Shown: positions 16,276 to 18,502 of the stretch, in pieces
Numbering within the stretch: the stretch's first letter is position 1
How the letters are laid out: each line of letters begins with the position of its first letter
Assembly: GCF_031457275.1 (NCBI RefSeq)
Contig: NZ_JAVDWH010000001.1
Coordinates: 2,294,001 to 2,358,000, forward strand
Direction: 5' to 3'
DNA length: 64,000 nucleotides
From: Aeromicrobium panaciterrae
GTDB taxonomy: Bacteria; Actinomycetota; Actinomycetes; Propionibacteriales; Nocardioidaceae
The notes under the pieces: generated by a model
Database searches by the model: none
Seen by the model: only the letters and a program-made list of their open reading frames with translations
Told to the model about the DNA's origin: nothing
Translations under genes and position numbers: made by a program

Positions 16276-16935
16276 TCAGAACAGTGGGACGAACAGCAGT
16301 GCGAGTCCCCAGCTCACGAAGCTCCCCACGAGCACATACTCCGCGCGCAGCCCCTCGGGCTTGTCACGCGAGATTTCGGGAAACCGGAGGATGCCCTTGG
16401 CTGCGACAACCAGGGCGATGGCGGCGAGGTTGCCGGTCACGGCGCAGCCGAACACGAACCAGCGCTCCAGCGGACCGAGCACGCGACCTCCTTGGAGGTC
16501 GTCCTCCTGCTCCAGGACCCGCGGCCCGGTCAGGGTGAGAACTTCACGTACGACGACATTGGCCGCGCTGGTCAGGAACAGGACGACGCCGAGCCCCAGC
16601 GCGAAGCGATCGAACGGAACGGTCGCGAGCGAAGGTATGTCGAGGTCGTCGTACCAGCCCTGGATCGGTACGTCGTCGAACGAGAGCTGCTCCGACAGAG
16701 CGATGAGCACGACGGTGTAGACCGCGAGCAGCGTGATGCCGGCGAAGGAGTCACTCCGAGCCCCGACAATCCACACGAAGACCGCGATGCCGAGCAGCGG
16801 GGCAAGCCACAGGGTGTTCCAGCCCGCGCCGACCAGCAACAGTCCGACGATCACGACGATGAAGCCGGAGAAGATCCTCCGGCCAATCAGGTCAGCCGCG
16901 CCTATTGCCGCGAGCAGGACTGCGAGCACACTCAT
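16276..16935 (-). CDS. Multi-pass membrane protein coupled to SatD-like gene
   Basis: A 219-residue protein with about six hydrophobic stretches: SVLAVLLAAIGAADLIG, IFSGFIVVIVGLLLVGAG, LAPLLGIAVFVWIVG, ITLLAVYTVVLIAL, LGLGVVLFLTSAANVVV and later GCAVTGNLAAIALVVAAKG and FVSWGLALLFVPLF. The ATG overlaps the satD-like stop as ATGA, so the two are translationally coupled. A membrane protein beside SatD is a known pairing (SatD/SatE in streptococci, DUF3307 proteins elsewhere), so this may be the SatE-like partner; the function is not established. Confidence 0.75.
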   Translation of the reverse strand: MSVLAVLLAAIGAADLIGRRIFSGFIVVIVGLLLVGAGWNTLWLAPLLGIAVFVWIVGARSDSFAGITLLAVYTVVLIALSEQLSFDDVPIQGWYDDLDIPSLATVPFDRFALGLGVVLFLTSAANVVVREVLTLTGPRVLEQEDDLQGGRVLGPLERWFVFGCAVTGNLAAIALVVAAKGILRFPEISRDKPEGLRAEYVLVGSFVSWGLALLFVPLF

Positions 16936-17576
16936 CGAGGTACCTCCGCGATCGACTCGACCAGCACGCTGACACCGGATCGGTGACGCTGTGACACTGC
17001 GGAGGTCGAAATGCCCTCGTCGGTAGCGATCTGAGCCAGCTTCTTGCCGTCCAGAACGCCCAGCGCAATGCGTCGCTGGCGCCCGTCGAAGTCGCTCACG
17101 AGCGTGTCCCGACACAGCAGATAGGCGTTCACGACATCCCCCTGGTCAGATCCCTCGCGCACGATCCGGGTCCGAAGTCCCGGAAAATGGCGTCCCCTTG
17201 CTTTGGCGTCATCAATTGCCTCCCGAGCTGACCACCACGCCTGTCCGTCCTGTGTCAGACCGTACGCGGAGGTGCCGACGATCTCCACCTCTCCTTCGCC
17301 GATGCCGAAGCGGCAGTCCATGCTTTCGGGCAGCGCGAGCCTGACCAGCACGGTCGCGTAGAGCGCGTCGTGCAGGTTGGCGTACACACCCTGGAGCTCG
17401 TCGCCGATTGTCGGCTCGAGCTTTTGGAGTGCCGGGAGTCGCGTGTTCACGGCGTCGAGTGCCGCGAGCAGGTGCTGCTGGGCTTCTCCGCGTGACGTCT
17501 GCTGGCGAGAACCGACCAGGTCACCGATCACGGCGTACTGAAGTGCTGCATCTCGAAGTGAAGTGTTTTGCTTCAT
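16932..17576 (-). CDS. SatD-family protein with C-terminal helix-turn-helix
   Basis: A 214-residue protein. It begins near AVIGDLVGSR, the conserved opening of SatD-family proteins, and its C-terminus carries a helix-turn-helix (KKLAQIATDEGISTSAVSQRHRSG, about residues 180-203). The start ATG 17576 sits 6 nt after a CACTAT -10 and within or next to the first of three 17-bp palindromes. I infer that it binds those sites and represses itself and the divergent ATP-grasp gene. SatD biochemistry is poorly known. Confidence 0.75.
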   Translation of the reverse strand: MKQNTSLRDAALQYAVIGDLVGSRQQTSRGEAQQHLLAALDAVNTRLPALQKLEPTIGDELQGVYANLHDALYATVLVRLALPESMDCRFGIGEGEVEIVGTSAYGLTQDGQAWWSAREAIDDAKARGRHFPGLRTRIVREGSDQGDVVNAYLLCRDTLVSDFDGRQRRIALGVLDGKKLAQIATDEGISTSAVSQRHRSGVSVLVESIAEVPR

Positions 17577-17631
17577 TTCTCTATAGTGAAGCCATTTGCT
17601 TGATTTAGCAACCTTGAAGCAGATTGCTTCA
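17559..17631. promoter_or_regulatory. Three 17-bp palindromic operators at exact 28-bp spacing
   Basis: Sites at 17559-17575 (TGAAGTGTTTTGCTTCA), 17587-17603 (TGAAGCCATTTGCTTGA) and 17615-17631 (TGAAGCAGATTGCTTCA) share the pattern TGAAG-N6-TGCTTSA; the third is a perfect palindrome outside its centre. Start-to-start distances are 28 and 28 bp. The first covers the satD start codon. The third lies between the -35 (TTGAAG 17614-17619) and -10 (TAGGAT 17636-17641) of the ATP-grasp gene. This is the layout of a repressor acting on both divergent promoters. Confidence 0.8.
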
Positions 17632-17635
17632 TACA

Positions 17636-17641
17636 TAGGAT
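17636..17641 (+). promoter_or_regulatory. -10 element of the ATP-grasp gene (leaderless)
   Basis: TAGGAT lies 6 nt before the GTG start at 17648, so transcription would begin on the start codon. TTGAAG is 16 bp upstream, overlapping the third palindrome. Confidence 0.6.
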
Positions 17642-17647
17642 GGGTGC

Positions 17648-18502
17648 GTGACCATCGCTTTTGTCTCCGCTGCCCCTTTCCGTGAACTGGATGAAGACCT
17701 CCCCCTCCTGCTCGACGCAGCGAAGCAACGCGGCATCGACGCCGAGCTCGCCAACTGGGACGACCCTTCCGTCGACTGGTCCGCGTACGACGCCGTGATC
17801 GTCCGCTCGTGCTGGGACTACATCAACCGCCGCGAGGAGTTCCTCACCTGGACTGCGTCCGTGCCCAACCTCCACAACAGCCACGACGTCATCAGCTGGA
17901 ACACCGACAAGGTCTACTTGCGCCAGCTCGAAGCTGCCGGCGTACCGATCATCGAGACGCGTTGGGACATCGCAGCCGGAGATGACATCGGAGAGCACGA
18001 CGAGTGGGTCGTGAAGCCGACCGTCTCCGCCGGCTCGAAGGACACGGCGCGGTGGACCTCGCGTGACGACGTGTACGCGCATTCCGCCCAGCTCGTGGCC
18101 GCCGGTCGCACCTCGATGACCCAGCCCTACATTGCCTCTGTCGACGACGAGGGCGAGACCGCGATGCTGTTCTTCGGCGGCGTGTTCTCGCACGCGATCC
18201 GCAAGGGCGCAATCCTCGCCAAGGGCGAAGGCGTACGTCAGGACCGCGACGGACGTGGCGAGAACCCGATGTCGCGTGAGCCCTCCGAAGCTCAGCACGC
18301 CATCGCCAAGCAGGCACTCGCCGCAACCGACGAGATCCTCGGACGAAGTGCCGGGCTGATGTATGCGCGCGTCGACCTGGTGACCGCAGCCGACGGATCG
18401 CCGCTGGTCATCGAGCTCGAGCTGACCGAACCGAGCCTTTTCCTGCCGTGGTCCAACGGCGGCGCCGAGCGTCTCGTCGATGCGATTGCGACGAACCTCT
18501 GA
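17648..18502 (+). CDS. ATP-grasp domain protein, DcsG/RimK-like
   Basis: A 284-residue protein resembling the ATP-grasp family of the cycloserine enzyme DcsG. Visible marks are NWDDPSVDWSAYDAVIVRSCWDY (about residues 36-58), the SWNTDKVYLRQLEAAGVPIIET hinge, the ATP-binding EWVVKPTVSAGSKDT, the MLFFGG strand, and the metal-ligand region YARVDLVTAADGSPLVIELELTEPSLF. These enzymes ligate an amine to a carboxylate through an acyl phosphate; the substrate is unknown. Start GTG 17648 is probably leaderless and under the palindromic operators shared with satD. Stop is followed 32 bp later by the hydrolase gene. Confidence 0.8.
   Translation: MTIAFVSAAPFRELDEDLPLLLDAAKQRGIDAELANWDDPSVDWSAYDAVIVRSCWDYINRREEFLTWTASVPNLHNSHDVISWNTDKVYLRQLEAAGVPIIETRWDIAAGDDIGEHDEWVVKPTVSAGSKDTARWTSRDDVYAHSAQLVAAGRTSMTQPYIASVDDEGETAMLFFGGVFSHAIRKGAILAKGEGVRQDRDGRGENPMSREPSEAQHAIAKQALAATDEILGRSAGLMYARVDLVTAADGSPLVIELELTEPSLFLPWSNGGAERLVDAIATNL

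Follow-up and report, generated by a model that had tools for sequence, protein, structure and literature searches.

In Aeromicrobium panaciterrae, three short palindromes stand at regular intervals between satD and a divergently oriented ATP-grasp gene, raising the question of which protein recognizes them and which of the neighboring genes they control. What is known of SatD is for the most part its name, which comes from the secretion and acid tolerance genes of streptococci. A preliminary description of the locus had suggested that SatD acts here as a self-regulating, two-sided switch. Based on a comparison of the locus with its relatives, we regard the array as real, conserved and probably the autoregulatory operator of SatD.

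The palindromic array

A pattern scan of the window (the whole stretch of DNA that was analysed, 64,000 nucleotides) matched TGAAG-N5-TGCTTSA with zero mismatches at 17559-17575, 17587-17603 and 17615-17631. Each dyad is 17 bp long and reads TGAAG-N7-CTTSA, and the start-to-start distances are 28 and 28 bp, exactly as the preliminary description had stated; its formula TGAAG-N6-TGCTTSA had the right motif and one base too many in the gap. The array is held in the 71 bp between the starts of satD and the ATP-grasp gene together with the first satD codons. The features of the locus are as follows, the promoter hexamers being read from the sequence:

16276..16935, minus strand: gene for a 219-aa membrane protein, the usual partner of satD; 4-nt overlap with satD
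16932..17576, minus strand: satD, 214 aa, with a class III cyclase-fold domain (predicted fold) and a C-terminal HTH; PF16264
16947..17087, minus strand: residues 164-210 of SatD, the HTH region, with its recognition helix at 191-210; from predicted secondary structure and covariation
17559..17575, no strand: dyad proximal to satD, exact match; reaches over the start codon and first codons of satD
17583..17588, minus strand: inferred satD -10, CACTAT; 6 nt before the ATG, leaderless
17587..17603, no strand: middle dyad, exact match; between -35 and -10 of the inferred satD promoter
17606..17611, minus strand: inferred satD -35, TTGCTA; 17-bp spacer to the -10
17614..17619, plus strand: inferred ATP-grasp -35, TTGAAG; overlaps the distal dyad, 16 bp to the -10
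17615..17631, no strand: dyad distal to satD, exact match; covers -35 and spacer of the inferred ATP-grasp promoter
17636..17641, plus strand: inferred ATP-grasp -10, TAGGAT; 6 nt before the GTG, leaderless
17648..18502, plus strand: ATP-grasp gene, D-cycloserine synthetase-like; NF058666, 271.6 bits, cut-off 360

Read on the satD strand, the left half of the middle dyad is TCAAG, one base off. The proximal dyad shares two bases with the satD ATG (17574-17576, minus strand), in agreement with the earlier reading that the first palindrome covers the start codon. That reading had also placed the three sites in near-identical helical register; the spacing is indeed identical, but 28 bp amounts to approximately 2.67 turns at 10.5 bp per turn, so that successive sites would face about 120 degrees apart.

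With two mismatches allowed, the window held 12 matches against 5.95 expected, a number reached in 3 of 100 shuffles with a pattern derived from the sites themselves. Throughout the single-contig 2.8-Mb genome, the tandem AAG-N7-CTT-N15-AAG-N7-CTT (at most one mismatch) was found only at the satD array, in two registers; the reversed control also gave 2 per strand, so the tandem count is no higher than that of the control. Perfect TGAAG-N7-CTTCA sites occurred at four places (control: 1 per strand), two of them in the array and the other two inside open reading frames. Judged from the tandem and the perfect sites, a genome-wide regulon was rejected, and the restriction of the tandem to satD fits the expectation for a local autoregulator.

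Conservation of the array

We sought satD in 58 genomes, including that of A. panaciterrae, and found it in 45; within the genus it was present in 31 of 36 genomes besides A. panaciterrae. To avoid the choice of a motif by eye, upstream regions were evaluated with a letter-blind score, the self-complementarity of 5-bp arms over all gaps of 1-15 and steps of 18-60 (645 combinations). Gap 7/step 28 ranked first of the 645 combinations in 56 non-redundant satD upstream loci (70 regions minus near-copies). A second set was taken from a profile search of 393 genomes of the class, in which 97 matched, 49 of them with E <1e-40; removal of near-copies left 39 later loci, none used before, including three from Aeromicrobium and 13 from one genus. 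Gap 7/step 28 again came first, and 31 of these 39 loci, which are related to one another and not independent, showed at least 8 of 10 pairs, whereas dinucleotide shuffling (60 rounds) yielded 2.7 loci on average and never more than 8.

For a pooled set, loci of less than 37% identity or with short proteins were left out, giving 86 upstream regions and 85 proteins. At step 28, the AAG/CTT core criterion was satisfied by 57 of the 85 pooled loci (shuffles: mean 0.1, maximum 2) and the core or dyad criterion by 67 (shuffles: mean 5.9, maximum 11). Counted otherwise, array loci number 49 under the dyad criterion and 66 when the core also counts; best placement without a third-site bonus gives 60 and 67. 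Array loci span Aeromicrobium, Nocardioides, Cryobacterium, Subtercola, Salinibacterium and further genera. The half-site drifts while the 28-bp step stays constant: TGAAG is found in most loci, ATAAG or ATCAG in Cryobacterium, Subtercola, Salinibacterium and one further family, and TTCAG in a Nocardioides, a same-family relative and some Aeromicrobium. Palindromes and spacing near satD, whose conservation the preliminary description had named as its check, are thus conserved far outside the genus. This recurrence in relatives argues strongly against chance palindromes, which we rejected on the shuffles and on the recurrence in the later loci.

A clear array was missing at 19 of 85 satD loci. 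One Aeromicrobium clade (L023-L029, L038, L091) keeps satD and the divergent ATP-grasp gene, with no clear array and no detectable membrane protein gene behind satD; within it, L025 has one perfect site, and L027 and L028 have a hybrid TGAAG..CTTAT site. Separately, a single species carries a second perfect GAAG-N7-CTTC tandem at step 28 on a contig other than that of satD (L163, G033:C1:1808841-1808883). This tandem, which could not be placed confidently relative to a gene, is possibly a second target or a product of chance.

Association of the array with satD and its neighbors

The membrane protein gene, absent from the preliminary description, lies behind satD at 72 of 85 loci. A Pfam search gave no family over the cut-off for this protein or for two relatives outside Actinobacteria; it may be SatE/DUF3307-like. 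Its C-terminal signature, ER ... AAKxIxRFxE ... AEYxLxGxxxS, was detected in 3 of 13 scanned loci, including 2 of 5 outside Actinobacteria, where it stands directly behind the SatD relatives of candidate division LCP-89 and WOR-3 (L074, L076). Given these two occurrences, the satD-membrane protein pair may be old. A defence system was considered and rejected, as SatD, the membrane protein and the ATP-grasp protein had no PADLOC match.

The divergent ATP-grasp gene is a less regular neighbor, found at 30 of 85 loci, and the array is present at 18 of these 30. Conversely, of 66 array loci, 48 lack an ATP-grasp gene on the divergent side. The five genus members with no satD match all possess an ATP-grasp homologue, and the tandem was found in none of them (0/5; reversed control 0/17); two of these assemblies are 99-100% complete and three 82-84%. 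The tandem was found in 12 of 12 satD-bearing genus members, but these had been chosen for having arrays. We further inspected the 150 bp before the match for nine ATP-grasp homologues located away from any satD array (the five from the satD-less members and four further homologues); the array site was absent, the best stretches reaching 6-7 of 10 matches. Ownership of the array by the ATP-grasp gene was therefore rejected and, as judged from this genomic comparison, arrays go with satD.

By eye, other palindrome-like stretches were noticed in the 150 bp that precede the ATP-grasp match in the satD-less members L168, L169 and L166 (CTGTCTGTTACTGA..TCAGTAA.AGACAG; CATTGATTC..GAATCAATG). Their sequences suggest that different local regulators may act before the ATP-grasp gene in satD-less genus members.

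These counts bear on the proposal of a true two-sided switch, by which SatD would coordinate the ATP-grasp gene with satD. The divergent arrangement with an array at 18 of 30 loci speaks for it, as does the distal dyad in the inferred ATP-grasp promoter of the window; the 48 of 66 arrays that stand apart from a divergent ATP-grasp gene, and the nine homologues without a site before them, speak against it. We consider such a switch rather unlikely, and at most lineage-specific. The array has not been conserved for the sake of controlling the ATP-grasp gene.

Inferred promoters and leaderless starts

Both the satD and the ATP-grasp messages look leaderless as read from the sequence. Among 81 loci, a TATAAT-like hexamer (at least 4 of 6 matches) was found exactly 6 nt before the most-upstream in-frame satD ATG in 35, the highest peak, the runner-up spacing accounting for 10, while a Shine-Dalgarno match of at least 5 of 6 occurred upstream of satD in only 2. 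Measured from the most-upstream satD ATG, dyad starts fall at -27 to -18 in 34 and at +1 to +19 in 35 of the 47 array loci for which an ATG was available; at several loci the most-upstream ATG used for the 81- and 47-locus counts sits within the middle dyad, which makes the true start uncertain there. On the other side of the array, the third palindrome had been described as lying between the -35 and -10 of the ATP-grasp promoter. It does cover the spacer before TAGGAT, and it also lies over the -35-like TTGAAG itself.

Sites over the promoter spacer and the start codon are the usual positions of a repressor. SatD might instead bind the array mainly to activate, or might work in two ways, repressing in one state and activating in another, ligand-bound one. 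Promoter arrays can serve both roles, and the distal dyad is situated upstream of the satD -35; the recurrence of the spacer and start-codon sites in 34 and 35 of the 47 array loci, at positions typical of repression, makes mainly activating or two-way control unlikely.

The SatD protein

SatD passes the gathering cut-off of PF16264 (58.6 bits versus 29, Pfam search). Its AF2 model (pLDDT 92.1) places C-terminal helices at residues 180-187 and 191-210, in agreement with the HTH that the preliminary description had assigned to this end of the protein; a match of the HTH to sigma-70 region 4 in Pfam is weak (E 0.026) and below the cut-off. By sequence, PDB relatives of SatD were confined to three weak HTH-only matches with E 0.64-1, TrfB among them.

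Structure comparison of the AF2 model predicts a class III nucleotide-cyclase fold for the N-terminal domain. A SatD profile compared with 30 cyclase domains gave P 8.1e-05, with an hhalign probability of only 61% and an alignment ending near residue 99. D19 and D59 are invariant in 79 sequences and align with the cyclase motifs, so that the two metal-binding aspartates are kept. By eye, Pro55 appears to stand at the position of the cyclase base-selecting lysine and Trp114 at that of the transition-state asparagine. PF00211 had no match in SatD at E 0.1 and exceeded its cut-off at two other places of the same genome (G000:C1:1511072-1511566 and 2443651-2444085). Two distant SatD relatives of the same order (L041, L042) have FVNAR/FSNAR where the group of the window has WWSAR; we take the former to be nearer to the cyclase motif VNxAxR.

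In the model the recognition helix begins with residue 191, which we compared with the outer bases of the half-site. Of 85 loci, 70 were concordant, 2 discordant and 13 ties, with Q191 accompanying AT outer bases at 22 loci and a residue other than Q accompanying TG at 48. The exceptions are L063 and L086, and A191 goes with the hybrid TGAAG..CTTAT sites in L027 and L028. On a tree of the SatD N-terminal domain, Q191 needs 7 changes and the AT label 6. Well-supported independent pairs numbered only 3 (on average 1.9 concordant, 0 discordant and 1.1 not differing), so the covariation test cannot reach significance and is limited by ancestry. Other SatD columns score about as high against site type, both in the HTH (V174, Q167, R197) and outside it (K125, G18).

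Together, arrays near satD beyond the genus, the 0 of 5 satD-less members and the HTH-site covariation favor the self-regulation by SatD that had been proposed, as far as comparison of sequences can indicate. A different regulator encoded elsewhere, for example of the MarR or TetR type, could bind the dyads and have satD merely as its target; dyads of 17 bp suit many dimeric HTH regulators, and the 19 of 85 satD loci that lack an array imply that SatD does not need one. Such a regulator would hardly account for an array that is missing in all five genus members with no satD match, adjoins satD in many families despite varied flanking genes, has outer bases tracking SatD's own recognition helix and occurs as a tandem nowhere else in the genome, and we consider it improbable. 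Chance, or palindromes acting as hairpins in the message, is extremely improbable: the proximal dyad overlaps the satD start codon and thus would fall within the transcript, but two of the three dyads precede the start point inferred for the leaderless message, and conservation is far above that of shuffles.

Proposed mechanism

The sites, their spacing and conservation, the HTH-site covariation and the predicted fold were computed, and on this basis we think it likely that SatD is a self-regulating transcription factor whose array-bound dimers repress its own leaderless operon, with the cyclase-fold domain as sensor. Binding, dimers, repression in place of activation, the promoter positions and the ligand are what we infer. 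One SatD dimer would occupy each 17-bp dyad via the C-terminal HTH, three dimers filling the array in 28-bp steps and presumably arranged at about 120-degree steps round the helix. The middle dyad would then lie in the -35/-10 spacer of satD and the proximal dyad would cover both the start point and the start codon of satD; binding should therefore repress satD and the overlapping membrane protein gene. Because the distal dyad falls within the divergent promoter in this genome, the ATP-grasp gene may be co-repressed. The N-terminal cyclase-fold domain, with both metal-binding aspartates kept, probably senses a ligand that sets DNA affinity, either releasing or tightening the dimers; its predicted class III nucleotide-cyclase fold suggests a nucleotide or a related compound as this ligand.

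More tentatively, and with some doubt, SatD proteins could represent widespread, unrecognised one-component regulators, in which a metal-intact cyclase-fold domain senses or makes a nucleotide and an attached HTH, acting through a fixed array of three dimers set 120 degrees apart, regulates a membrane protein gene that accompanies satD even beyond Actinobacteria.

Should SatD prove to be a repressor that has its own defined operator and a nucleotide-cyclase fold, a puzzle from S. pyogenes would become testable, namely that satD is essential where present, yet accessory and often absent (PMC11323703). A gene both essential and accessory would suit a repressor of something harmful. The questions would then be which ligand SatD binds and what harm a derepressed partner membrane protein does. 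The apparent code between residue 191 and the half-site offers a direct mutational test.

Comparison with known systems

In the portions of the literature available to us, satD appears mostly in tables and annotations: in S. suis it is tabulated as 'DNA-binding protein' (PMC12005413), and elsewhere there are a SatD annotation (PMC10326533), changes in SatD level (PMC10210942), tabulated satD expression (PMC5786311) and SatD tabulated as a neighbor (PMC5066943). The searched portions of the full-text literature on SatD, mostly outside subscription journals, contained no SatD operator, measured DNA binding or cyclase fold, and the searched text of a survey of actinobacterial cyclases mentions neither SatD nor an HTH (PMC2447327).

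The divergent neighbor of satD resembles DcsG, the D-cycloserine synthetase, in that NF058666 matches over nearly its whole length; its 271.6 bits are less than the NCBIfam equivalog cut-off of 360, and it is not filed as DcsG. SatD itself shares with class III nucleotide cyclases the predicted fold and two metal aspartates, whereas the PF00211 match is missing. GTP cyclohydrolase III (MJ0145) was not among the sequence matches of SatD which, unlike it, carries an HTH.

The nearest precedent in overall design is found among PucR-type regulators. In MabR (Rv2242), an HTH follows a GGDEF-like domain that belongs to the cyclase superfamily but lacks catalytic motifs (PMC11617747). A cyclase-superfamily domain joined to an HTH is thus common to MabR and SatD, and 9f80 ranked 35th in Foldseek with E 1.7e-03. 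SatD differs in being 214 aa long with no globin domain, in an HTH that matches sigma-70 region 4 below the cut-off, and in a domain nearest to class III cyclases and not to GGDEF, in which the metal-site aspartates are kept; moreover, PF13556 and PF17853 of the PucR family were not among its Pfam matches at E 0.1. As far as the literature searched shows, the general kind of regulator is therefore already known, while a defined SatD operator and the reading of SatD as a cyclase-fold protein are new.
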